DNA of 64,000 nt from Pseudomonadota bacterium (GCA_021300175.1 JAJTIC010000023.1:1-64000); one strand, 5' to 3'; positions 39,114 to 53,034 are shown, counted from the stretch's first letter. Notes: generated by a model not told the origin, from the letters alone. Program-made: numbers and translations.

Positions 39114-39872
39114 ATGAGACTTTTGGCAATTATTCTGGGGAGCTTTGTCGTTGTTGGGATGGCCCTTTTGACCGTGCGTTTTTGGGGGCTCAGCCAAACC
39201 TATTCAAAATATTCATCTCCCTTTATGGCTGAATCGGAACCTGAGATGCTCATTGCCCCTTGGGAGCAATCTTACTTTATTGAGAATTACCCAAAGTTGA
39301 TTCTTTGGGCGGATGTCTACCGAGGTGAAGACAAAGCTTTACTTGTTAGACCCTGGCAAGATCGACACCTGCTGTTGAATTCCCTTGAAAAGTCAGCTTC
39401 TCCCGCAAGACCTCTCCTCACAGATCTCTTGAAGTCGCAGCCTCACCAAAGATTCATTCTCAGTGTGATTGCGAACGAACAGGGCATCCATCAACAAATC
39501 AAAATGATTTTGGACGAGACGAAAGCTAAAGACCGAGTCCTAATTACCAGTGAGTATCCTATCGTCATGGAGTCTATCAAAGAGCTGGAGCCCACGGCTC
39601 TTTTTGGCTCTTCAAGTGCTGATATCGTGAGACTGAAGTCTTTTTTGTCATTGGGCGTGCTCCCTGCCGCTCCCTTCAAAGGAGACGTGCTGATCACTCA
39701 ACTCAATAAAAATGGAATTAGTTTGATCAATCCTGGCATCGTTCAAGAAGTCCAAAGAAGACAAAAGAAAGTGATCCTCGGCCCCCTCGAAAATAGAGCA
39801 GAAATCCAAGAAGCTCGTTCTCTGATGCCTAATGGATTATTTATTTCTGATCCTTTGCTTTTGAATCCTTAA
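39114..39872 (+). CDS. GDPD-fold protein with lost catalytic residues
   Basis: This 252-residue protein has an N-terminal membrane anchor (about 1-22) and a domain whose layout recalls glycerophosphodiester phosphodiesterases: LILWADVYRGED, RFILSVIA, KDRVLITSEYPIVMESIKEL, ISLINPGIVQEVQRRQKKV and the end NGLFISDPLLL. In active GDPDs the strands carry HRG, E-x-D and a paired histidine; here the aligned sites read WAD and VRPW, and no HRG is seen. It is therefore probably not catalytic. It is the first plus-strand gene before tolQRAB, with 115 bp between them. The fold is inferred by eye. Confidence 0.6.
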   Translation: MRLLAIILGSFVVVGMALLTVRFWGLSQTYSKYSSPFMAESEPEMLIAPWEQSYFIENYPKLILWADVYRGEDKALLVRPWQDRHLLLNSLEKSASPARPLLTDLLKSQPHQRFILSVIANEQGIHQQIKMILDETKAKDRVLITSEYPIVMESIKELEPTALFGSSSADIVRLKSFLSLGVLPAAPFKGDVLITQLNKNGISLINPGIVQEVQRRQKKVILGPLENRAEIQEARSLMPNGLFISDPLLLNP

Positions 39873-39987: not shown

Positions 39988-40716
39988 ATGAGCACTGCTG
40001 CCGTGGCCTCATCTGTCACATCATCAAAAGTTGCCATCAACACGGGGGCTTGGGATGCCATCATGCAAGCAAGCCCAATCGTGCAGCTAACCCTTGTGAT
40101 TCTTGTGGCTCTTTCCATTTTCTGCTGGGCCATTGCTTTTGCTAAATACCGCAACTTCAAAAATTTAACTTCTGCGAACGAAAGATTTACCCATCGATTT
40201 TATAAAGCATCATCTTTAGAGTCTCTCTACGAAGACATTGACAGTTTTAAGGATAGCAGTATCGCTCGCGTCTTTCAGGCAGGTTACCTCGAGCTCAAAA
40301 AACTAGCCGAACGTAAACCCGAGGGCGGACAGGCTGGGCTTCTTGTATCTGGCTCTGACAACTTAGAAAGAACTCTCAGAAAATCCATGGATGCAGAGCT
40401 AGCTGCGATGGAATCAAGATTAAGTTTATTAGCAACAACCGGATCTACTGGGCCTTTCATTGGACTCTTCGGAACTGTTTGGGGAATCATGGGATCATTT
40501 CATAAAATTGGAGCCACGGGCTCTGCTTCATTGGCGGTGGTGGCTCCCGGAATTTCTGAAGCTCTTGTGGCAACCGCCATCGGTTTGGCAGCTGCCATCC
40601 CCGCAGTAGCTCTTTACAATCACTTCATTGCGCAAATTAAAAAAGAAGAAATGGCTCTGAATTCATTCTCCACTGATTTTTTAAACATTGCTAAACGCAA
40701 TTTCTTTAAAGAGTAG
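39988..40716 (+). CDS. tolQ: TolQ/ExbB family proton-channel protein
   Basis: This 242-residue inner-membrane protein forms the proton channel of the Tol-Pal system, which uses the proton gradient to constrict the outer membrane during division. Three membrane helices are expected. The first is near 30-50 (VILVALSIFCWAIAFAKY). The second and third contain GSTGPFIGLFGTVWGIMGSF and ISEALVATAIGLAAAIPAVALYN, with the channel-lining threonines. GAAGGAG lies 6 bases before the ATG. It starts the tolQ-tolR-tolA-tolB-glnE-cyclophilin unit. Confidence 0.93.
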   Translation: MSTAAVASSVTSSKVAINTGAWDAIMQASPIVQLTLVILVALSIFCWAIAFAKYRNFKNLTSANERFTHRFYKASSLESLYEDIDSFKDSSIARVFQAGYLELKKLAERKPEGGQAGLLVSGSDNLERTLRKSMDAELAAMESRLSLLATTGSTGPFIGLFGTVWGIMGSFHKIGATGSASLAVVAPGISEALVATAIGLAAAIPAVALYNHFIAQIKKEEMALNSFSTDFLNIAKRNFFKE

Positions 40717-40719
40717 ATA

Positions 40720-41139
40720 ATGGGTATGTCGAGTAACTCTGGCGGTAAGAGCCGAATGACCATTAGCGAGATCAATGTCACTCCTCTAGTGGATGTGATG
40801 CTCGTTCTGCTGATTATGTTCATGGTCACAGCGCCGATGATGCAGCAAGGGATCGATGTGGACTTGCCAAAGACAGCCTCGTCAGGTGTTGAGCCTTCTG
40901 AAGATCCATTCGTTCTGATTATTTCAGCGGATCAAAAAATCTCGGCTGGTAAGCAAAGAATTGAAATGAGCGAACTGAAGACCAAGCTCGGGGCTATTTT
41001 TGCGACAAGAAAAGACAAGCAGCTTTACATTCAAGCAGATCGCAAGGTGGACTACGGTTTTGTTGCCGAAGCGATGGCCGAGATCAGAGCTGCCGGTATT
41101 TTTAATATAGGGCTTGTGACAATCCCTAAAGGAAACTGA
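40720..41139 (+). CDS. tolR: TolR/ExbD family protein
   Basis: This 139-residue protein has one N-terminal membrane helix with the proton-carrying aspartate in INVTPLVDVMLVLLIMFMV (Asp near residue 27), then a periplasmic domain ending VTIPKG. The length and motif are typical of TolR/ExbD. It starts 3 bp after tolQ and its stop shares one base with the tolA start. Assignment to Tol rather than ExbBD relies on the neighbouring tolA-tolB pair. Confidence 0.93.
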   Translation: MGMSSNSGGKSRMTISEINVTPLVDVMLVLLIMFMVTAPMMQQGIDVDLPKTASSGVEPSEDPFVLIISADQKISAGKQRIEMSELKTKLGAIFATRKDKQLYIQADRKVDYGFVAEAMAEIRAAGIFNIGLVTIPKGN

Positions 41140-41951
41140 TGTCACCATACCAAGTGCCCAGAGATGAAAGTCTCCGAAAGTATCTGATTGGGTCTGTTGT
41201 GGTCCATGGTTCACTTTTGTTGTTCTTCTCTGTTAAGGCGGTGTTCTGGTCTGGCGAAGCGATCAACTTACAATCTGCTGTTCGAGTGGATCTTGTGGCT
41301 CTTCCGGATAAGATCAGTACAAACACGCCTCCACCGGGAGCTTCTCCAGTTCCTGAAAAAGAAAAGCAACCAGAAAAAACTCAAGAAGCTGCAAAAACGC
41401 CTGTGTCAGAGAAGAAACCCGAACCTAAAACGGCCGTCAAAGTTCCTGAAAAGAAAAAAGAAGATGATGCGATTAACCTAGAAGCCACAAAAAATCGACA
41501 AAAGGATGCGCTGGCTCGACTCAGACAGCAAGCGGCCCTTGAAGAGATTGAGAGAAAAGCCGAAGCCGAGGCTAAAAGACAAAAGGCCCTCGAAGCCGTT
41601 CGAGGCAGTGCTCAACAATACAAAGGGAATGTGCTTTCCACCGGGAACAGCCTGACTGGACTTGCGAAACTGCAAGCAGAGTCCTATATCGCTAACGTCC
41701 ATTCTCATATGCGACAGAACTGGTCTTTGCCAGATTATCTGCGCCGAAGAAATTTGAATGCCGAAATTGTTGTAAAGTTTGATGCTCAGGGAAATATTCT
41801 AGCGAAGGCTTTGGTTCGGTCTAGTGGGAACCCGACTTTTGATGAAATCGCTTTAAGCGCGGTCCAGAACTCATCGCCAGTTCCACCTCCGCCTGAGAAG
41901 TTTGTTAAGATTGCATCTGTAGAAGGATTTTTGTTTCGATTTAGTGAGTAG
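41139..41951 (+). CDS. tolA: TolA-type energy-transducing protein with TonB C-terminal domain
   Basis: This 270-residue protein has an N-terminal membrane anchor (about 15-36, IGSVVVHGSLLLFFSVKAVF), a long Lys/Glu/Pro/Ala-rich coiled-coil stalk and a C-terminal TonB/TolA fold (about 175-265, with NAEIVVKFDAQGNILAKALVRSSGNPTFDEIALSAVQNSSP in part). TolA links the TolQR motor to TolB/Pal. It shares one base with tolR. The stalk is shorter than E. coli TolA (421 residues), so the reach across the periplasm may be smaller. Confidence 0.88.
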   Translation: MSPYQVPRDESLRKYLIGSVVVHGSLLLFFSVKAVFWSGEAINLQSAVRVDLVALPDKISTNTPPPGASPVPEKEKQPEKTQEAAKTPVSEKKPEPKTAVKVPEKKKEDDAINLEATKNRQKDALARLRQQAALEEIERKAEAEAKRQKALEAVRGSAQQYKGNVLSTGNSLTGLAKLQAESYIANVHSHMRQNWSLPDYLRRRNLNAEIVVKFDAQGNILAKALVRSSGNPTFDEIALSAVQNSSPVPPPPEKFVKIASVEGFLFRFSE

Positions 41952-41966
41952 AAAAGGACGGTCATC

Positions 41967-43364
41967 ATGATAAAGCATCTCGTATTTGGATTGATTTTAT
42001 TTGTGACAACAATCTCTGGAGCGCAAACAGCAGGTCCTAGCTCTGCTGCCAAAGTTCAAATCGATGTTGACCAAGCCAAAGTTAGAAAAAGCTTGATTGC
42101 TTTTCCCTCGCTGCAGTTTTTTGGAAATCCTTCATCTTCGCCGAGCTTCAATGCCGTGGGTGCTGAGCTTTATCGAACAATCAATAATAACCTGACGGTA
42201 ACTTCCTTTTTTCAATTTATTAATCCTTCAGCGTTTCTTGAAGACACAACGAAAGTAGGATTGAAGCCGGCCCCCGCTGATGCCAATGGATTCAAATTTG
42301 ATTCTTGGAAACAAATCGGAGCAGAGTTTTTGATCCGTGGAGGATTCTCTTTGGCGGGAAATGATCTAACTCTTGAAATCTATGTTTACAATGTGACTAA
42401 AGCGGATCTTGTTTTTGGAAAAAAATATCGAGGAACAACTGATGTCACTCGTCGAATTGCTCACACTTTCTCGAATGATCTGCTGGAAGCCCTGACGGGC
42501 ATTCGCGGAATGTTTCTATCTAGGGCTGTTTTTACCAGCGACCGTGGTGGCGGTGGATATCGTGAAGTTTACATCATGGACTGGGATGGGATGAATGTCG
42601 AAAAACTCACTAATCATAGATCTGTTTCATTATCCCCAGCAATTTCCCCAGATGGAACGAAAGTGGCCTACACTGCTTTCGTGCAACGAGCGCGAACCAA
42701 AACAAGGAACGCAGATCTATTCCTTTATGATTTGCAAACCGCCAAACGCTGGCTGATTTCGTACCGACAAGGAATCAATTCCGGGGCTTTTTTCTCGCCG
42801 GACAACGAACATATCTTCCTGACAATTTCACAAAATGGTTCGCCGGATATCTATAAAATCAAGCAAGATGGATCGATGGTGGGTCGAATCACCAATGGTC
42901 CTCGGGGCGCGATGAATGTGGAACCTGCAGTCAGTCCCGATGGAAAAAAGATCGCTTACTCTTCTGATCGTAGTGGTCAGCCGATGATCTATATCGCCAA
43001 TGTGGATGGATCAAACCCTAAGCGAGTAACTTTTGCTGGAAGATATAATTCAACCCCTTCTTGGTCACCTGATGGAAAGAAAATTGCGTTTTCTGGCTGG
43101 GAAGCAGATCACTTCGACATCTTCACTATGAACGCTGATGGCACAAATATGGTGCGTATCACTTCTTCGCGAAAACCCAATGGAAAATGGGCCAACAACG
43201 AAGATTCGGTTTGGTCACCCGATGGACGCTTTTTGATGTACACCTCAAATCGCACAGGATCGAGTCAGATTTACATTTCAAATTTGGATGGATCAGAAGA
43301 AAGAAGAGTCACTTCTGATAGCTTTAACTACTTCAAACCAAGATGGTCAAAGAACCTTGATTGA
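41967..43364 (+). CDS. tolB: Tol-Pal system beta-propeller protein TolB
   Basis: This 465-residue periplasmic protein has a signal peptide (about 1-21), an N-terminal alpha/beta domain and a six-bladed beta-propeller built from [10 protein letters not shown]-type repeats, of which at least five are obvious ([44 protein letters not shown]). In E. coli TolB carries Pal to the divisome. It follows tolA by 15 bp. Its stop codon overlaps the likely start of the GlnE gene by 8 bp. No pal gene follows. Confidence 0.95.
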
Positions 43365-45789
43365 TGGTTTCTTCTCATTTCACAACTTAACAGCTGGTGA
43401 ACTGACTCGCCTTGAGAGCCTTTCGCCAGCGATCCAGCGCTATCGAAAGCTCACAGAGAACTCAGTTTGGGATATAAAAACACAGAGACATTTCTTCTGG
43501 AATCAAGCGGCTGCTTCTTCCATCTTGAGTACCCATTCAGCGAAGGAAATCTGTCAATTCTGGTCACAAAAAACCGACGAGCTTCTGACCCTAGCTCTCA
43601 ATGAAATAAGCCAAGAGCTTGATTTTCACGAGTTTGCTATTTTTGCCGTCGGCAAACTGGGCTCCATTGAGCTCAATCTTTCAAGCGATATTGATTTGAT
43701 TGTCCTGTGTGCTGAGAATCAGTTGCCGCAGGGAAAACACCTCCTGAAACTTTTGAATCAGAAGCTTGCTCTGGCGGATGATCGTGGTTTCTGTTATCGC
43801 ATCGACTATGATCTGAGGCCCGGTGGAAAGCTAGGACCTCTTCTAGCAACACCTGATCAGTTGATTGATTGGTACGGAAACTACGGAGAAGCATGGGAGC
43901 GATTGGCGCTCGTGAGACTTCGTCCCATCTTTGGGTCCTCGAGTATTATTAGTCCAGTCTTACAGTTCCGAGACAAGTTCTGCTTCAGAAAACATCTTGA
44001 TTACCAAATTCTCAGTGACCTCAAGCTCATGAGGGAAAAAGTTCTGACGGGGTATGCCCATCGAACTAAGGATGATCAAATTGATCTAAAGCTGGGCGCG
44101 GGTGGAATTCGGGACTTAGAGCTTTTTGTTCATACACTCCAAATTATTCATGGCGGTAAAGTTCCTTCAGTGAGATCTAGTACGACCGATGGTGCCCTAG
44201 CAGAACTTGAAAAGCTCAATTTCTTATCCACTGAAGAAGCTTTATTCCTTACTTGTCATTACTGGGAGCTCAGAGATTGGGAAAACAAGGTTCAAGCCTT
44301 AAATGATCAGCAGACCCACCTTCTCTCTTCGAGCTTTCCTTTGGTCAACAACCATCAGTTTCAATCTCTTAGAGATGGTATGGAAAAGTGCTCTCAGTTA
44401 GTTGCAAGTTTGCTCGGTAAAGTGACTTTCGAAAAATCAGCATGGCCAGAAGATGAAGAACTACAAATGAAAATCATTGGAAGCTGGGGATTTCAGGAGA
44501 AAGAAGCTCAAGAGACTTGGACAAATATTCAAAGAACCCCGATTTTGAGCCGTCAGAAAGAAAGAGATGAAGCTGCTCGTCGGCAATTCTTGCATGAAAT
44601 CCTGAAAAGAATGGGGCCCATCTGTACGGATCATACCGTCAGCATGAAGCTTTTATCGCAATTTATTGAAGCGACAAAGGCAAAGACTTCTTTCTTCACC
44701 ATGTGCCTGACGTCAGAGAAGCTCCTCGATGAAATTTCAAGCTGGTTTGCGACTTCGACTTATCTGAGCCAAAGACTGATTCAAAGACCCGAACTTCTGG
44801 ATGCCCTTGTTATCAACCAAGCAGAGATTTCTCATCTCGAAGCAGATGAAGAACTTACCCCACTGACGGACTACAAGTTTCTGCGCGAAACTCGCATTGT
44901 CACACGATTTCTTGAGGACCTTGATCTCAGAGCATTCTGTCAATCACTCACGCAGACAGCGGATGAAATTGCCCTCACATTACTCAACTATTTAAAGAGA
45001 GAGTTTCCGGCCTCTCAACTGAAGATCATCGCTGCAGGTAAGTGGGGTGGGCAAGAATTTGGAATTCAGTCAGATCTTGACCTTCTGCTCTTCACCGATG
45101 GAGATCAAAGCTCAGAAATCAAAATTGCTCGACGATGGATCAATCGAATCACCGAGCTGAGAAAAGGCGGGGCTCTTTATAAAATAGATTTGCGCCTGAC
45201 GCCCCAGTTTTCATCTGGTTTCTTACTGCAAACCGAAGAAAACTTTCGACAATATCTTTTCATCAGAGCGACAGCTTGGGAAAGACAAGCTTTTCTTCGG
45301 TTGCGATCTCTGAATCAACCGGTGGACTTTCAGTCTGCTCTCAAATCAAGAAACCTCAGTCGCGAAGAGCTCAAAGAACTCCATCGAATTCAATTGCAAC
45401 TGTTTCAAACAGCCAAAGGGCCTCTCGATGTGAAGCTGAGCCCCGGAGGACTTCTTCACACTGAGCTCGTCGCCCAAACCATAGCGCTTCTGCATCCTGA
45501 GGAAATGGAGCCAAGTTCGAGCACTCTGGATCTCATTCATAAGTACTTGCCATTGAAAATTGCTCAAAGCTATGTCAAATTAAAAACCATCGAACAGCTT
45601 CATCGCATTTTTTCCGAGTCTTCTGCTCCTCTCACAGAGCAAAACCTGAGTTTGAAATCTATTTTGAGCAACATGAGGGACTCTGCTTTGGGATCTAGCA
45701 CCTTAGACTTCAGCTCGAATATAAGAGCGACCCTCACTGATAACGCAGCACAGTTGCAGCGTCTTGACCCTCGGGTTACAGCAGAATAA
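43357..45789 (+). CDS. glnE: GlnE-like glutamine synthetase adenylyltransferase/removase
   Basis: This roughly 810-residue protein has two nucleotidyltransferase domains: the N-terminal one contains [16 protein letters not shown] and the C-terminal one [19 protein letters not shown]. Both show the catalytic D-x-D and are followed by PII-uridylyl/GlnE-type helical blocks. GlnE adenylylates and de-adenylylates glutamine synthetase in response to PII. E. coli GlnE is 946 residues; this one is shorter, chiefly at the N-terminus. The start is uncertain: TTG at 43357, inside the tolB end, is used; ATG at 43288 is in frame but overlaps tolB by 77 bp. It is an unusual member of the tol operon. No glnA or glnB gene is in the window. 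Confidence 0.88.
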
Positions 45790-45798
45790 ACCTGTGGC

Positions 45799-46416
45799 AT
45801 GAAAAATTCTTACTTAAAAGCTTTTTGGATTTATTTTGTTGCTGCTCTTTTACTAACCCTGAGTTTCCACGCGGAAGCAAAAACGAAGGGTGATTCAAAA
45901 AAAGGAAAAAACATGATCGCTGTTTTCGAGACCTCATTAGGTCAATTCAAAGTTGAACTTTTCAACGATAAGGCACCAAAAACTGTTGAAAATTTTGTAG
46001 GTCTCGCTGAGGGGACCAAAGAATGGACCGATCCTAAGACTGGTCAAAAAGTGAAGAAGCCTTTTTATGATGGCTTGAAGTTTCATCGCGTGATTTCGAA
46101 CTTTATGATTCAAGGTGGATGCCCGCTTGGAAACGGAACTGGCGGACCAGGTTACCGATTTGAAGATGAATTCCACAAAGAGGCTCGCCATTCCAAACCA
46201 GGAATGCTTTCCATGGCAAATGCAGGACCCAACACAAATGGATCCCAGTTTTTCATCACTGTTGCTGCCACTCCTTACCTGGACAATCGACATGCCGTTT
46301 TTGGAGAGGTTATCGAGGGAATGGATCTCGTGATGAATATCTCCAAAGTGAAGACAGGTCCCATGGATCGCCCTGTTGAAGATATTGTGATCAAATCGAT
46401 TAAGATTCAAAAGTAG
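45799..46416 (+). CDS. ppiA: Periplasmic cyclophilin-type peptidyl-prolyl isomerase
   Basis: This 205-residue protein has a signal peptide (about 1-28, ending HAEA) and a cyclophilin domain. It contains FHRVISNFMIQGG, GPGYRFEDEF, MLSMANAGPNTNGSQFFIT and HAVFGEV, so the active-site Arg, Phe and Gln residues are present. It catalyses cis-trans isomerisation of X-Pro bonds during periplasmic folding. It starts 9 bp after glnE and ends the tol operon before a strong terminator. Confidence 0.94.
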   Translation: MKNSYLKAFWIYFVAALLLTLSFHAEAKTKGDSKKGKNMIAVFETSLGQFKVELFNDKAPKTVENFVGLAEGTKEWTDPKTGQKVKKPFYDGLKFHRVISNFMIQGGCPLGNGTGGPGYRFEDEFHKEARHSKPGMLSMANAGPNTNGSQFFITVAATPYLDNRHAVFGEVIEGMDLVMNISKVKTGPMDRPVEDIVIKSIKIQK

Positions 46417-46424
46417 ATATCTTC

Positions 46425-46454
46425 GTCTCATTTTGAGACACACTTTCGTGTGTC
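46425..46454 (+). other. Two overlapping hairpins after the cyclophilin gene
   Basis: GTCTCA-TTT-TGAGAC (46425-46439) and GACACAC-TTTC-GTGTGTC (46437-46454) are both perfect and share GAC, so they cannot form together. They lie between the cyclophilin stop and the terminator at 46480. They may be a 3'-end stability or switching element; no T-run follows either hairpin. Confidence 0.5.
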
Positions 46455-46479
46455 CACAGGTTAAACAAGTGAGTGACAG

Positions 46480-46509
46480 AAAAGGGCCAAGTTGAACTTG
46501 GCCCTTTTT
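46480..46509 (+). terminator. Strong intrinsic terminator of the tol-glnE-ppi unit
   Basis: A nearly perfect stem of about 12 bp (AAAAGGGCCAAG with CTTGGCCCTTTT, loop of 4) is followed by T residues. It is largely symmetric but is best oriented for plus-strand transcription, and separates the tol unit from the next gene. Confidence 0.85.
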
Positions 46510-46574
46510 AATTCACTTTCCTAAAGATGATAGCCTGGCATTCGCATTGCTTTTAGAGGGTGTAAGGGAGGCCT

Positions 46575-49500
46575 ATGGCTTACTTTAGAATTCTTCTTGC
46601 AGCTGTTATGTTGTCCACGACGCTCACGCTGAGTTTTCAGCAACCAGCGTATGCAATTTCTCTTTCGGGAGTTCGCCAAGGCGCCACCGTTATCGCTAAG
46701 GGCGTGACCTCGAAGATTTCAAAATCAGCAGCTGGTGGACACCTCGTCACTCTTACTGCTGAATCTGGCGAGACTTTAGGAAGGTATGCTCTGGCTCCTG
46801 CTTCTAAACAAGCTTTGAAGAACTTTAGCCCTCGAGCCATTGCCCAATCCATGCGGGCAGGCATGCAGAAAGCGGGCGGTGTCGCTGGCGCTGCTGGAAG
46901 AATTGCAGCAACCCAAATAAAAAGATTCCCCAACGAAGCCTTTGCATTTTTCCTAGCGATAGGTGCAATTACGGCAGGGCAAGTGATCTTTGATTACGCA
47001 AACAACCCTGTTGCTTTAGAGCAGCACCTAAACGCCCAGAAAGATCCTGTGGGTCACTTAGGATTCTTGGCTTTTATGGTTGCCAATGGACTTGTTTCTG
47101 AACCCTTGATGGCTGCTATCGAGTCCAAGCGTATTCGTCCATTTATTCCCTACATGGGAATGGCAGTAGGAATGATCGCATCTAACATAGTTCACGAAGT
47201 GGGGCATTTTCCTTATCTTCAGCAATGTATCAAGGAACGTGTTTCAATTGGAAACTTCGAAGGAGAGAACTGTCAGAAAGCCTATACAGCTTGGACAGAA
47301 TTCTCATTTGGCGAGAAAGCTCATGAGTGGGCACCCATGCTAATGTCTCTCTTCGCATCAACTTTCCTTTCAGGCTTTATCCATATGGCACTTGTAAAAG
47401 CAGCTCAGTGGACGACAGCCCGAATTGTAACAGTCGTTGGTATCGAAGTTTTAACGAGCTTTATTCCTGGTGGAATTTTTGTCAAAGGGATACGTTTTGT
47501 AGGTAAAGTTGCTCAGCTGGGCATGTTCGTGGGCCTTGATATGGTCATTCTCCCTTTATTCACAACTCCTTACAAAAACATGAAAGAGGGTTGGGACATT
47601 GATGATCTTGATCGGCAACTGCTTCAAGGAATCACCCGCAAGAAAGATAACTTCTGGCAACCAGAAACTCATGAGTCTTGCTGGAAAACTGAAAAGCCAG
47701 ATAAAGAAAAGTGTGCGAAAGAGTTTGTCGAAGTTCTTAAAAATATGCAGGGCGAGCTTGCCTCTTGGCGAGAAATGAATCTTATGAGTGTGCTGATGTC
47801 GCAGTCAAATTGGGCGACTTACCTGTCACAAATGTCTGCACAGTATAGAGCTTCCAAATCTTTCTACCGACATTTTCTCAATGAATTATGGCAAAAACAG
47901 TTCGGTCCTTACAAAAACTATATCAGAATTATTGACAGAATCTTTCCTTTGAATGGCGTCACTCCTGCTAATTTTAATGAGCAAAGACAAGAGGCTTTCT
48001 TAGATGATCCTGAAAGTATTGAAAAACTCCAACTGGACACTGTGATTGCAGCTGTGAATGGATTTGCCCGCAAATTCAATGCAAAAGAAGGCTTGATTGC
48101 TCAACTCAATCAAGAGGAGAGAGCAAAGATTTTAGAAATTCATAAACTCTTAAGGACAATCGAACCCAACAAAGTGGGCGAAGGACTCCAGTTGATGAAT
48201 CAGTATATTGGAAAAGCATTCCCGCGAAAGTCCTCAACAGCAAATGTCGAGCGCGTACTTACAGAATATCGGGCTCTGTTCGGTGATCCTCAACCTTTCC
48301 TGAAGCCTGGACTCGGGTACTTTAGGTACTACGAAATGCACCCGAATAATTCAGAAAGTCTTAAAAGTGTGCCCCAACAGAGATGGTACAGCACAATCTC
48401 CACGCCAACCCTGCCAGAAAGCATGCTCGCTTCGATGCTGTTCGGACCCGAGGTGGGCCGCCAGAGTTCTAAAGATTTCAATTTGATTCGGAGTACTTCG
48501 GGCTTCAAGGCCATTTTCAGTGCCCCCCGTTTGGCAAAAGATACTTTAATGCCGATCAACTACAGTCAAGTGGCCTATGACCCAAAGAAATTCAGTCGGG
48601 TAACAGAGGTACGGTACCGCCAGTACTCACCGCAAAGGCGCTTGGGCGAAACTCCTCGACCTCTGAGTTCAGACGCTCTTTACGATTACCTTCGGAAGGG
48701 AAATATCAGATCTGATGTTCTTAACTCCGATCAGAGATCCATCAGTCGTTGGTGGGATGCTCATGCAGAGACAGAGTACATCCGAGCCTGGGTTGACTAT
48801 GAAGATAAGTATCAAGAAGTTATCCGAGATCTCGTCAAGAAAATGTGGAGAACTGAGAGCAATTTTTGGGAAAATGGTCCTACAAAATCTAACAATGACA
48901 GTCTTTTCAATAATTCGACTGTGGCCAACTCGGTGGTAGACGCCCTCAGACAGGAGCGTAAACTTTATCTCCTTATCTTGGGTGAACTTTTCAAAGATGT
49001 GGGCGCCCGAGCTGGAGTGCTGAATAAAATGATGAGCAGGGCTCCAAATGCCCCCGTGAGATCCCAAGGAGTTCGCAGTGACTCACTGATGAGTGCCCTC
49101 CGCTTCAACAATTCATTGGACTTCTCGGCTCTTGTGACTCGTACAACTTTGAAAACTCAAGCGAGAGCTGTCAATCGCACGACCCTCCGGACTCCTGTGA
49201 CTTTTGCCTGGAAGTCCATGGACCACAACCTTGTTTGGCAAAATCAGATTTTGAACGAGTTTCGAAAGCTTGAAATTGAACTCGCTAAAATCAAGCCTCA
49301 AACGATTAACAAAAATGGAGAGCAAATAGAGGTTCCTGTTAGCACTGCGGAAAATGCTCAGCTGAAGTCGATCAAAGAAAGTATTGATCAAAACCTGAAT
49401 GTTCTTAAAGTCATGCTGAACGGAACAATCGACCCTCAAGAGATGGCGATGCTCTCTTCTGGGGGGATCACTCCCCTGGTCAACACGACAGAGTATCAAA

Positions 49501-49703
49501 AGAAAATCATCGACCTCTGCCTCAAAGGTCTTTCAAGTATTGCCAACGAAATGATGACATTGGGACTCATTGCAAACTCAGTTAGTTATCGCGAACAACA
49601 TAATACAGAAGATGGATATGCGAAGCCTCGCTGTATCAATGCGGGAGCTACCCAAACACAGACCGTGGGTGGCGTGAGACGGGTACTTGAGGGATGCCAG
49701 TAG
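46575..49703 (+). CDS. Large multi-pass membrane protein with HEVGH motif, unknown
   Basis: This 1042-residue protein has an N-terminal signal-like segment (about 1-27), a polytopic region (about 115-330, some six hydrophobic helices) and a long hydrophilic, mostly helical C-terminal part (about 340-1042). The third hydrophobic helix ends in HEVGH (residues 207-211), the HExxH form of zinc peptidases; a second HE occurs at 250-251. It is not a clear site-2 protease, since the usual NxxPxxxLDG partner was not found, so the motif may be coincidental. AAGGGAGG lies 3 bases before the ATG. It follows a strong terminator and is close to a small secreted-protein gene downstream. I do not recognise the family. 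Confidence 0.85.
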   Translation: MAYFRILLAAVMLSTTLTLSFQQPAYAISLSGVRQGATVIAKGVTSKISKSAAGGHLVTLTAESGETLGRYALAPASKQALKNFSPRAIAQSMRAGMQKAGGVAGAAGRIAATQIKRFPNEAFAFFLAIGAITAGQVIFDYANNPVALEQHLNAQKDPVGHLGFLAFMVANGLVSEPLMAAIESKRIRPFIPYMGMAVGMIASNIVHEVGHFPYLQQCIKERVSIGNFEGENCQKAYTAWTEFSFGEKAHEWAPMLMSLFASTFLSGFIHMALVKAAQWTTARIVTVVGIEVLTSFIPGGIFVKGIRFVGKVAQLGMFVGLDMVILPLFTTPYKNMKEGWDIDDLDRQLLQGITRKKDNFWQPETHESCWKTEKPDKEKCAKEFVEVLKNMQGELASWREMNLMSVLMSQSNWATYLSQMSAQYRASKSFYRHFLNELWQKQFGPYKNYIRIIDRIFPLNGVTPANFNEQRQEAFLDDPESIEKLQLDTVIAAVNGFARKFNAKEGLIAQLNQEERAKILEIHKLLRTIEPNKVGEGLQLMNQYIGKAFPRKSSTANVERVLTEYRALFGDPQPFLKPGLGYFRYYEMHPNNSESLKSVPQQRWYSTISTPTLPESMLASMLFGPEVGRQSSKDFNLIRSTSGFKAIFSAPRLAKDTLMPINYSQVAYDPKKFSRVTEVRYRQYSPQRRLGETPRPLSSDALYDYLRKGNIRSDVLNSDQRSISRWWDAHAETEYIRAWVDYEDKYQEVIRDLVKKMWRTESNFWENGPTKSNNDSLFNNSTVANSVVDALRQERKLYLLILGELFKDVGARAGVLNKMMSRAPNAPVRSQGVRSDSLMSALRFNNSLDFSALVTRTTLKTQARAVNRTTLRTPVTFAWKSMDHNLVWQNQILNEFRKLEIELAKIKPQTINKNGEQIEVPVSTAENAQLKSIKESIDQNLNVLKVMLNGTIDPQEMAMLSSGGITPLVNTTEYQKKIIDLCLKGLSSIANEMMTLGLIANSVSYREQHNTEDGYAKPRCINAGATQTQTVGGVRRVLEGCQ

Positions 49704-49838
49704 GCATGCTCCTTGTAACTAAAGGAATTGAAGGTTTTAAAGTACGCTTAAATGCAGCTGACCAATCGAGAAGGAGCAGTTTGTGTTGAGTGTACAAAAG
49801 TTAAACACAAGTTTGGAACAAAAAAAAGGAGTTCTGAT

Positions 49839-50549
49839 ATGAAAAAGCAACTAATCTTAGGAATGGCAACTGTTTTAGCACTGACTTCATTTGAAGTCGC
49901 TTCTGCCGCGACTCGAGCTGCTGAGGTAAGAACAAAATTAGAAAGAGAAATGAGAGACGCTCTGAGCAAAGGAAGCATTACTGGTTTGAATGAAAATTCG
50001 GCTGCCAAGGCACGTGAATCAGCGGCAGATAAACTGGTTGGAGTCGCGAGAATCGCTGATGCGAACGAAATGACCTCTGCGCTTGGGAAAACAATTAAAG
50101 TCAAAGAAGCTGATGGTCGTGAGGTATCAACTTCAGTGATGGATATCGCTCGAAAATTATTGAGAACAGAACAGGCTTTGAACAATTTGAACCAAAACGA
50201 AATGGGCCCTGAGGCTCGCGCTCACGTAAAGCTCGTAGAGACAGCTCTACAACTGGGCGCACAAATGATCGGAAGCTTATCTAAGACCTCTGATGTTGTT
50301 GCAAATCTTGATGCTCAATCAAAACTGCAGGTAGAAGCTTTCTATAAGCAAGTTTCTTTGCTCCCAGAAATGGTCACAAAAATGGACTCTAAAGAATTGA
50401 AGAGCCACATTGAAATCATGGAAGCAACGATGGCGCAAAAAACAGGTCCCAATGTTAAAGGCGATGTTGCTTTTGCTGCAGCCATGAGAGCCAAGTATGG
50501 CGCAAAAGCCAATGATAAGATGAACGAACTTTTGGGTTGTGCTCGCTAA
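49839..50549 (+). CDS. Secreted helical protein of unknown function
   Basis: This 236-residue protein has a Sec signal peptide (about 1-23, ending VASA) and an almost entirely alpha-helical mature part with heptad-like stretches (LEREMRDALSKGS, ALQLGAQMIGSLSK, FYKQVSLLPEMVTKM) and a single C-terminal cysteine (LLGCAR). AAGGAG lies 7 bases before ATG 49839; the longer frame back to 49752 lacks a site. It lies 135 bp after the HEVGH membrane-protein gene and before a terminator. The two may be functionally linked, but the gap leaves room for a separate promoter. No family recognised. Confidence 0.8.
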   Translation: MKKQLILGMATVLALTSFEVASAATRAAEVRTKLEREMRDALSKGSITGLNENSAAKARESAADKLVGVARIADANEMTSALGKTIKVKEADGREVSTSVMDIARKLLRTEQALNNLNQNEMGPEARAHVKLVETALQLGAQMIGSLSKTSDVVANLDAQSKLQVEAFYKQVSLLPEMVTKMDSKELKSHIEIMEATMAQKTGPNVKGDVAFAAAMRAKYGAKANDKMNELLGCAR

Positions 50550-50579
50550 TAACTAAGCACCTTCTGCTGAACTTGTGTG

Positions 50580-50614
50580 AACAGGCTGGCCTTAAAGCTA
50601 GCCTGTTTTGCTTT
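50580..50614 (+). terminator. Intrinsic terminator after the secreted helical protein
   Basis: An 11-bp stem including one G-T pair (AACAGGCTGGC with GCTAGCCTGTT, loop CTTAAA) is followed by TTGCTTTT, about 31 bp after the stop codon. Confidence 0.75.
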
Positions 50615-50681
50615 TGCGGTCTAGTTTGTATTTTTTTGTTTTTCCCCTCTGAAGTGTCTCAACCTAAGATCCGATAATCTA

Positions 50682-51557
50682 ATGCAAACTCAATTGACTG
50701 GGGTATCTATTTCAGAAACGGTCTTTTTTTCTATTTTGAGTTTCTCTTCTGGCTGTCTTTTTACTGCGGCAGTGGCCTACTTTATATTCCAGCAATCCAC
50801 TCGAAAATTAGATCTTAAAATCAATGGCCGTCTAAAGTTTATTCAAGCAGATAAGTTCAAATCAATGGCCGAAATGTTTTCGGGTCTCGCTCATGAAGTC
50901 AATAATCCCTTGGCAATAATTCTCGGCCGCGCTCAAACTATGAGAATGAAAGCAAAGCACTCAAAGCTCACCCCAGAGCAAATGGAAGAGGGACTTCTCA
51001 AAATCGAAGGGGTCACTCAGCGAATAGCAAAAGTTGTTTCTGATCTTCGCCATGTGGCTCAAGATGGGGAAAAAACCTTTCCTGAAACCACTGGTGTCAA
51101 AAAAATTATTGACGATGCATTAACATTTTGGCGCCAAAAACTTATAAACCACGAGGTGGAGCTGAGATTGCCTACTCATTTAGCTCATCAAACAGTCTAT
51201 TGTAAGCACACACTTGTTGTTCAGTCCTTGATGAACTTGATTTCTAATTCTTTTTTGGCTGTTAAAGATGAGCCCGAAAAGTGGATCGAGGTACAAACAC
51301 ACAGAAATGGAGAGCATCTCGAAATCTGGATTTTAGATTCCGGAAAAGGTGTTTCACCTGACAATCAAAGTAAAATCTTCGAGCCTTTCTTTACAACTCG
51401 TGAGGTTGGGCAAGGCAGCGGACTAGGGCTCTCGATTTCTTCAGGAATTATCCAAGAGCAAAACGGATACTTGAAGCTCAATACAAAGTTAGATCGGACT
51501 TGCTTTGTTGTGGGTTTACCAATGGCTAAAGAAAAATTGGTTCAAACAGCTGCTTAG
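50682..51557 (+). CDS. Small membrane histidine kinase, orphan
   Basis: This 291-residue kinase has one N-terminal membrane helix (about 14-37) and no recognisable sensor domain. The phospho-acceptor is His71 in LAHEVNNPLAIILGRA. The ATPase domain has an N box (SLMNLISNSFLAV), DSGKGV and GQGSGLGLSISSG. There is no response-regulator gene adjacent. The gene converges with motB, overlapping by 4 bp. Signals could enter through the membrane segment or through a partner. Confidence 0.9.
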   Translation: MQTQLTGVSISETVFFSILSFSSGCLFTAAVAYFIFQQSTRKLDLKINGRLKFIQADKFKSMAEMFSGLAHEVNNPLAIILGRAQTMRMKAKHSKLTPEQMEEGLLKIEGVTQRIAKVVSDLRHVAQDGEKTFPETTGVKKIIDDALTFWRQKLINHEVELRLPTHLAHQTVYCKHTLVVQSLMNLISNSFLAVKDEPEKWIEVQTHRNGEHLEIWILDSGKGVSPDNQSKIFEPFFTTREVGQGSGLGLSISSGIIQEQNGYLKLNTKLDRTCFVVGLPMAKEKLVQTAA

Positions 51558-52285
51558 TCTTCTTCATTGACAATAAGAATTTCAATCCTGCGATTTTTTG
51601 CGCGATTTGTCTCATTGATGTTTGGAACGAGAGGCCTTGTGTCGGCATACGAAATTGCCGCCAATCGAATTGGGTCGATGTTGTGGTATTTCACGAGATA
51701 ACGAACCACGCTCGTAGCTCGCAAACTCGCAAGCTCCCAGTTACTTTCGAACTGCCCACCGATGACCGGCTGATCATCGGTGTGACCTTCAATGATAATC
51801 CGTCGATTGGAAGCTTTCAGAACTTCTGCAATTTTATCTAGGGACTTCAAAGCCGGAAGTCGAATCTTGGCCGAGCCCGTAGGAAAGAATGTGGACGCCG
51901 CAAGGCTGATCCTGACACCCATGGTGTCATGTCTCATTCCTCCGATCGCAAGCTTTCGCTCTTCATCAGACATTTTCTTTTGAAGGAGTCGATCCACATA
52001 ATCTTCCAGTTCCCCATTACCAACACCCCGCTGTTGAAACAAATCAATAGGGTCAATCAGTTGCCCGAGAAGTCCCCCCGATTGATTTTGGCTCGTACCA
52101 AGCCCTCCGACCATCTTGAATTGAGCCCGCACCGAGTCCTCGAATTTCTTTTCTTTTTCATAGTTTTGCGATGAGGTGGCGTACAACACGGCAAAGAGCG
52201 CGAATAGGAGGGTGATGAAATCCGCATAAGAAACGAGCCATCTCTCGTGATTTTCATGATCTTCTTTTTTCTTTCTTTTTATCAC
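51554..52285 (-). CDS. motB: Flagellar stator protein MotB
   Basis: This 243-residue stator subunit has a cytoplasmic N-tail, one membrane helix carrying the proton-accepting Asp22 in WLVSYADFITLLFALFAVLY, and a C-terminal OmpA-like peptidoglycan-binding domain (IIIEGHTDDQP, NRRIEILI). It anchors the stator to the cell wall beside the rotor. It overlaps motA by 4 bp. Motility therefore depends on a proton or sodium gradient; the ion cannot be decided from sequence. Confidence 0.95.
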   Translation of the reverse strand: MIKRKKKEDHENHERWLVSYADFITLLFALFAVLYATSSQNYEKEKKFEDSVRAQFKMVGGLGTSQNQSGGLLGQLIDPIDLFQQRGVGNGELEDYVDRLLQKKMSDEERKLAIGGMRHDTMGVRISLAASTFFPTGSAKIRLPALKSLDKIAEVLKASNRRIIIEGHTDDQPVIGGQFESNWELASLRATSVVRYLVKYHNIDPIRLAAISYADTRPLVPNINETNRAKNRRIEILIVNEED

Positions 52286-53034
52286 TGGGGATCCTCAAGA
52301 AAGCTTCTCAATTTAATGTCAATCAGGGCCGGGCTGAGTCCCGCTTGAATCGACAAAGCACCTTCGAGTACCATTTCACGCACTCTAATTTCATCAGCAA
52401 TTCTTCTTTTCAGCTTATTTCCCATCGGAAGGAAAATCAGGTTAGAAAAAGCCACACCATAAATTGTGGCCACAAAGGCCACGGCAATCCCGGCTCCAAG
52501 TTTTGAAGTGTCCGTAAGATTGCCCATCACATGAATCAAACCAAGAACTGCACCGATAATCCCAATGGTGGGTGCATAACCTCCAGCATCGGTCCAGACC
52601 TTGGCCGCCGATAGAAGCTTATCTTCTTGGACTTCGATATGCTTTTCAAAAAGCTGTCTCGCAACTTGAGGATCTACACCGTCAACGATGGTTCTCATCG
52701 CTGACTGAAGAAACTCGTCTTTCATAGAAGGGATGCGGCCTTCGATAGCCAGAATGGATTCTTTTCTTGCAATCTTTGCACACTCCAAAATTTCAGCCAT
52801 AAGAGCTTTTGCCTGTCGTTCATCATTCTTTTTGAAAGCAGTCTTAGCCATTCTCAGGCCCAGTAAAAAATCTTTCTTCTTTGAGCTAACAAGGACCGCC
52901 CCAAAAGTCCCCGAGAGAACAATCACAAGGGCGGCAAATTGAAAGAGCGAGCCGAGGTGTCCTCCTTCAAGAATATTTCCTAGAAGAATTCCTCCGATAC
53001 CAATGATTAAACCGATGATTGTTGTAACGTCCAT
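52282..53034 (-). CDS. motA: Flagellar stator protein MotA
   Basis: This 250-residue four-helix membrane protein forms the ion channel of the flagellar stator with MotB. Typical blocks are the first helix IIGLIIGIGGILLGNILEGG, RTIVDGVDPQVARQLFEKH (the cytoplasmic loop) and the fourth helix GIAVAFVATIYGVAFSNLI. The loop contacts FliG in the rotor. It overlaps flbD by 28 bp and motB by 4 bp, so the three are co-transcribed in the order flbD-motA-motB. Confidence 0.95.
   Translation of the reverse strand: MDVTTIIGLIIGIGGILLGNILEGGHLGSLFQFAALVIVLSGTFGAVLVSSKKKDFLLGLRMAKTAFKKNDERQAKALMAEILECAKIARKESILAIEGRIPSMKDEFLQSAMRTIVDGVDPQVARQLFEKHIEVQEDKLLSAAKVWTDAGGYAPTIGIIGAVLGLIHVMGNLTDTSKLGAGIAVAFVATIYGVAFSNLIFLPMGNKLKRRIADEIRVREMVLEGALSIQAGLSPALIDIKLRSFLEDPQ

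Follow-up and report, generated by a model that had tools for sequence, protein, structure and literature searches.

A large predicted envelope protein and a small signal-peptide protein encoded as a pair in the Bdellovibrio clade, and the HEVGH motif that is not conserved in their family

In the window analysed here, a stretch of 64,000 nucleotides from a Pseudomonadota bacterium (GCA_021300175.1 JAJTIC010000023.1:1-64000), a large protein in which a hydrophobic segment ends in the motif HEVGH is encoded just ahead of a small protein with a signal peptide. The locus raises the question of whether this pair is a membrane protease with its substrate or partner, as a first-pass annotation made from the window had suggested, or an envelope unit in which the motif plays no part.

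The gene pair in the window

The large gene (46575–49703; this and all other features of the pair are on the + strand) starts with an ATG preceded by GGGAGG, a good ribosome-binding site, and encodes 1042 residues with HEVGH at residues 207–211 (47193–47207), just as first annotated. The product begins with a signal-peptide-like segment (residues 1–28, 46575–46658), which is hydrophobic from about residue 3 to residue 27, carries a conserved P24 and ends in a conserved A-Y-A. Six weakly to moderately hydrophobic segments follow at about residues 121–139, 158–176, 189–207, 256–274, 284–302 and 312–330, and the motif does lie where it had been placed, at the end of the third of them. The first reading of these segments as about six hydrophobic helices of a polytopic protein is tentative: they are marginal, and the clues to their topology disagree, as discussed below. 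Past residue 330 the protein has no strong hydrophobic segment, only weak peaks near residues 610 and 986, which agrees with the hydrophilic C-terminal part of about 700 residues described at first; this part is probably mostly helical.

The small gene (49839–50549) encodes a helical protein of 236 amino acids that has a signal peptide and whose only cysteine lies three residues from the C-terminal end. Its likely start is the ATG at 49839, which has an AAGGAG ribosome-binding site and stands exactly 135 bp past the stop codon of the large gene, the distance originally reported; the mechanical open reading frame is longer and starts at 49752. Only two terminator-like hairpins are present on the + strand within 45700–51700, and both flank the pair, one on its 5′ side (46479–46509, 14 pairs) and the other on its 3′ side (50579–50608, 12 pairs), so that the strong terminators noticed around the pair are also borne out.

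The pair is embedded in a set of envelope and motility genes. Upstream are tolQ, tolR, tolA and tolB (39988–43364, + strand), named as reading frames from sequence and recognised as conserved upstream neighbours by synteny, followed by glnE and by an exported peptidyl-prolyl isomerase-like gene (ppi, 45799–46416, + strand), which is the usual immediate upstream neighbour. Downstream of the small gene come a kinase gene, then motB and motA on the opposite strand (51554–53034, − strand), which are frequent downstream neighbours, and then FlbD, epimerase, mtgA and ABC genes. Large stretches of this gene order recur at many loci, in several families of the taxonomic order. A reading frame of 252 amino acids upstream of tolQ (39114–39872), for which no Pfam match was found, is likewise syntenic with tolQRAB in several loci.

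Distribution of the family and conservation of the pairing

A search of 100 related genomes gave homologues in 77, which were taken together with their flanks. Across the class, 108 of 144 genomes (75%) encode the large protein, mostly as a single copy per genome. Genome G006 has two copies, the second of which (L036:7294-10074) lies away from the Tol genes, has no small partner and is a possible specialised paralogue. In G017 the large gene (L058:7778-11623) consists of two adjacent reading frames of 344 and 916 amino acids, 60 bp apart, which may reflect a frameshift, an assembly error or a true split. Among named genomes, a scan with the window protein alone gave no match; a scan with a Bdellovibrio alignment gave six loci, all assigned to Bdellovibrio or Bdellovibrionaceae in GTDB records.

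The most widely conserved region spans residues 120–331 (46932–47567), which includes the six hydrophobic segments and the conserved F125, P145, P158, F167, G195, G199, C218, C233 and P254. Near-invariant positions of the family are P145, F167, G195, G199, C218, C233 and P254 in this region, W398-R399, W413, Y431, G570, G624-P625 and G643 further on, and F648, P651, W726-W727, E794 and Y798 toward the C-terminus. The window protein has the full core of P145, F167, G195, G199, C218, C233, W398, W413, G570 and W726-W727. The region of residues 120–331 is also common to relatives of about 700 residues outside the class, a distant form seen outside the order in two of the phylum's sampled genomes (L081 and L082). 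These proteins, which come from other lineages of Bdellovibrionota, have the first hydrophobic region in common with the family and, as in the pair, have a small signal-peptide protein with a near-terminal cysteine encoded nearby, but their C-terminal part is shorter, their paired cysteines lie in the loop joining segments 1 and 2 rather than 3 and 4, and the partner is on the opposite strand. In one of them (L082:1-4923) the relative is divergent from a 191-residue signal-peptide protein ending in cysteine, and a leader-bearing reading frame of 719 amino acids follows, possibly a three-gene version of the arrangement.

Sequence, profile and homologue scans of Pfam, NCBIfam, PHROGs, PADLOC and PDB returned chance-level matches only, except for DnaJ in one distant homologue. 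The profile searches that the first-pass annotation had recommended as a check thus brought no informative family match for the large protein, and no enzyme family was matched in sequence or profile comparisons. The large protein and its partner are undescribed in the libraries searched. The DnaJ domain belongs to one small-genome genus (1.4–1.6 Mb), where it stands directly after the hydrophobic leader (L084:2675-6499 and L089:1770-6020); in L084 it is matched by Pfam at 8.9e-11 and reads HSD, and in L089 the J-domain is seen by sequence with HPD intact. An N-terminal DnaJ domain after a leader recalls membrane J-domain proteins of the DjlA type, but the remainder of both proteins is unlike known J-proteins, and the window protein has no J-domain.

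Of the 50 loci with at least 900 bp of downstream sequence, 45 have a downstream gene for a protein that combines a signal peptide with a cysteine among its final nine residues. These small proteins are about 165–290 residues long and fast-evolving, with the cysteine at the extreme C-terminus; an iterated profile recovers 26 of 49, and the other 23 are assigned by position, signal peptide and terminal cysteine only. When all loci were surveyed for signal-peptide-like reading frames of 150–300 amino acids, a single terminal cysteine was found in 46 of 204, about as many as there are partners, and this feature is therefore nearly specific to the partners. The partner is retained at loci away from Tol (L034, L046, L054, L058, L060 and L067) and is missing from a few loci (L033, L036 and L065). 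In two genomes of 1.2–1.3 Mb (L090:2368-6175 and L091:3947-7653), the small gene is directly upstream of the large one, the order being swapped and the adjacency kept.

The HEVGH motif is not conserved

The annotation had put forward a possible membrane protease. According to this explanation, the large protein would be a membrane zinc metalloprotease with HEVGH as its active site and would cleave, at the membrane, the small protein or some other substrate. The location of the motif speaks for it, since in M50 site-2 proteases and HtpX/Ste24 (M48) HExxH likewise closes a hydrophobic segment, a likeness confined to the window protein. Conservation of the motif among homologues had been named beforehand as a test that could refute the proposal. 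Among 57 aligned large-protein sequences, 56 rows of which were usable for motif counts, HExxH is present in five (HEVGH, HEIGH, HEIAH, HEIGH and HEVGH) and absent from 51. At column 207, S is found in 22 homologues and H in 15, and at column 211, S in 19 and H in 12; Bdellovibrio orthologues read SSIAS, SQVAS and similar at this position. All five HExxH rows fall within one nine-row clade of the maximum-likelihood tree that includes the window protein (SH-aLRT 99), which again favours a protease, but the other four rows of this clade read AEVAH, GEALH, SEVAH and HDVWA, with H207 changed to A, G or S and E208 to D. The motif is therefore not maintained even by the closest relatives of the window protein as a group.

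The motif arises in 1.1% of 20,000 residue shuffles of the window protein, a mildly unlikely event that could be counted for a protease but is not compelling, given the number of proteins per genome. A separate, isolated HExxH (HEMKH at residue 366), present in three Bdellovibrio proteins that are almost identical (L007, L008 and L009), lies at an unrelated position and shows that such motifs arise by chance. No conserved third zinc ligand was found, and the nearby candidate H250/E251 is missing in L004 and L044, both of which are HExxH members. Profiles of M48, M50 and other peptidases gave no match in Pfam and NCBIfam up to E=10, nor in Pfam with 22 homologues. AlphaFold models of the full large protein with a seven-row alignment and of residues 28–375 as a single sequence had pLDDT values of 40.5 and 42.2, respectively, and were unusable. 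Non-conservation of HExxH refutes a metalloprotease for the family and makes it very unlikely for the window protein; for the pair as a whole, we consider a protease highly improbable.

Cysteine patterns, topology and possible roles

The cysteines of both proteins follow regular patterns. The pair C218 and C233 of the large protein (47226–47273), kept in more than 50 of 57 homologues, is a predicted disulfide. Large-protein cysteines are gained and lost as close pairs (218/233, 369/380, 599/641 in Bdellovibrio numbering, and 1020/1041), and their count is even in 45 of 56 proteins. In L049 and L065 the pair between segments 3 and 4 is lacking, and one is present between segments 1 and 2, where the two relatives outside the class have theirs. 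Paired gain and loss together with even counts suggest that these cysteines form disulfides outside the cytoplasm, and hence that both loops and the C-terminal part would be located there. The loop charges, which are +2.5 before segment 1, −1.4 in loop 1–2, +2.5 in loop 2–3 and −0.5 in loop 3–4, agree with this topology. The stretch between the leader and segment 1 gives conflicting signals. The A-x-A end of the leader, resembling that of a signal peptide, would imply that residues 28–115 are periplasmic, whereas the charge of +2.5 before segment 1, the two cysteine loops and the J-domain would imply that they are cytoplasmic; the J-domain, inserted between the leader and segment 1 in one genus, argues that this stretch can be cytoplasmic. 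Two resolutions offer themselves: an uncleaved leader that does not span in the usual way, or one marginal segment that does not span.

In the small protein, the number of cysteines is odd in all 49 cases (one in 45 and three in four), and the last is at most seven residues from the end. Because the count is odd, one cysteine should be free to bond another molecule. The idea of a bond from it to some unpaired large-protein cysteine was weighed and dropped, the large-protein count being mostly even.

Conservation of the pair, synteny, the cysteine patterns, the lack of an enzyme match and the non-conservation of HExxH together lead us to favour, at a probability of roughly one half, a clade-specific envelope unit composed of a membrane-anchored periplasmic scaffold and a dedicated secreted partner, the latter probably disulfide-dimerised. 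The large protein would be exported to the inner membrane, be anchored there by its hydrophobic segments, and carry a large, mostly helical, disulfide-bonded periplasmic domain; it would serve as a scaffold or docking platform with no enzymatic activity. The small protein would be secreted via its own signal peptide, probably use its lone C-terminal cysteine to pair with itself or with a third protein, and dock on the large protein; HEVGH would be an incidental helix end. The first-pass annotation had itself offered a scaffold with the small protein as partner. The partnership is supported by the conserved pairing, and the scaffold role itself is what we infer from the patterns above.

Other roles have been considered for the same pair. 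The large protein might be an exporter, assembly factor or chaperone to which the small protein binds once exported by Sec, to be moved or polymerised across the envelope; we hold this to be possible at low odds. Adjacency of the two genes survives changes of order or genomic place, and the small protein evolves much faster than the large one, as a surface-exposed or delivered protein would; however, no similarity to ATPase, secretion or usher families was found, and the small protein has a signal peptide of its own. It is rather doubtful that the pair serves Tol-Pal or the flagellar motor as an accessory, as a clade-specific counterpart of CpoB (YbgF). Its place between tolQRAB and motBA in many genomes, in several families of the order, would fit such a function, and the small partner, like the Tol-Pal accessory CpoB, is a signal-peptide envelope protein encoded beside tolQRAB. 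This location holds at many loci but not at all of them. The pair is also found with its partner away from Tol (L034, L046, L054, L060 and L067), so its usual setting may be a matter of envelope genes clustering in general, and the small protein then stays with the large protein and not with Tol. Moreover, neither protein has a Pfam match to TPR or any other CpoB feature, and the small partner sits beyond glnE and ppi, whereas CpoB follows pal.

A role in predation, in which the small or large protein is delivered into prey or acts on it at entry, appears unlikely. The HD100 entry cluster includes Bd0173, an uncharacterised protein with a signal peptide, present in empty bdelloplasts too (PMC12546842). 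Bd numbers were set by counting genes between the anchors NamZ (Bd0152), RomY (Bd0164) and the Suf (Fe-S) genes (Bd0187/0188), NamZ being identified by Pfam and taken for the 'muramidase' Bd0152, and RomY being assigned by position. Counting in this way places Bd0173 at the pair or within about two genes of it, but the number fits four genes alike (that of a 206-residue protein, the small gene, the large gene and that of a 152-residue protein), and the family occurs in three quarters of the class, including genomes of 1.2–1.7 Mb of unknown lifestyle. The connection of Bd0173 to the pair is therefore a lead, not evidence. Bd0161, a predation gene by Tn-seq (PMC6561027), was rejected as the HD100 member of the family, as anchor counting makes it a gene of 485 amino acids at 151464–152921 of the contig on which the genes were counted.

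The scaffold with its secreted partner, our preferred explanation, can be extended to an envelope machine of the Bdellovibrio clade, in which a membrane platform would build or display a disulfide-dimerised, fast-evolving secreted protein and act with Tol at the surface or during prey entry; this extension is a long shot. That a predatory lineage has a core envelope protein which is nearly always accompanied by a secreted partner and stands outside curated families leaves a gap in what is catalogued for Bdellovibrio. HEVGH, which first drew notice to the locus, is a dead end, and the specific experimental handles come from the pair together with its cysteine pattern and syntenic location.
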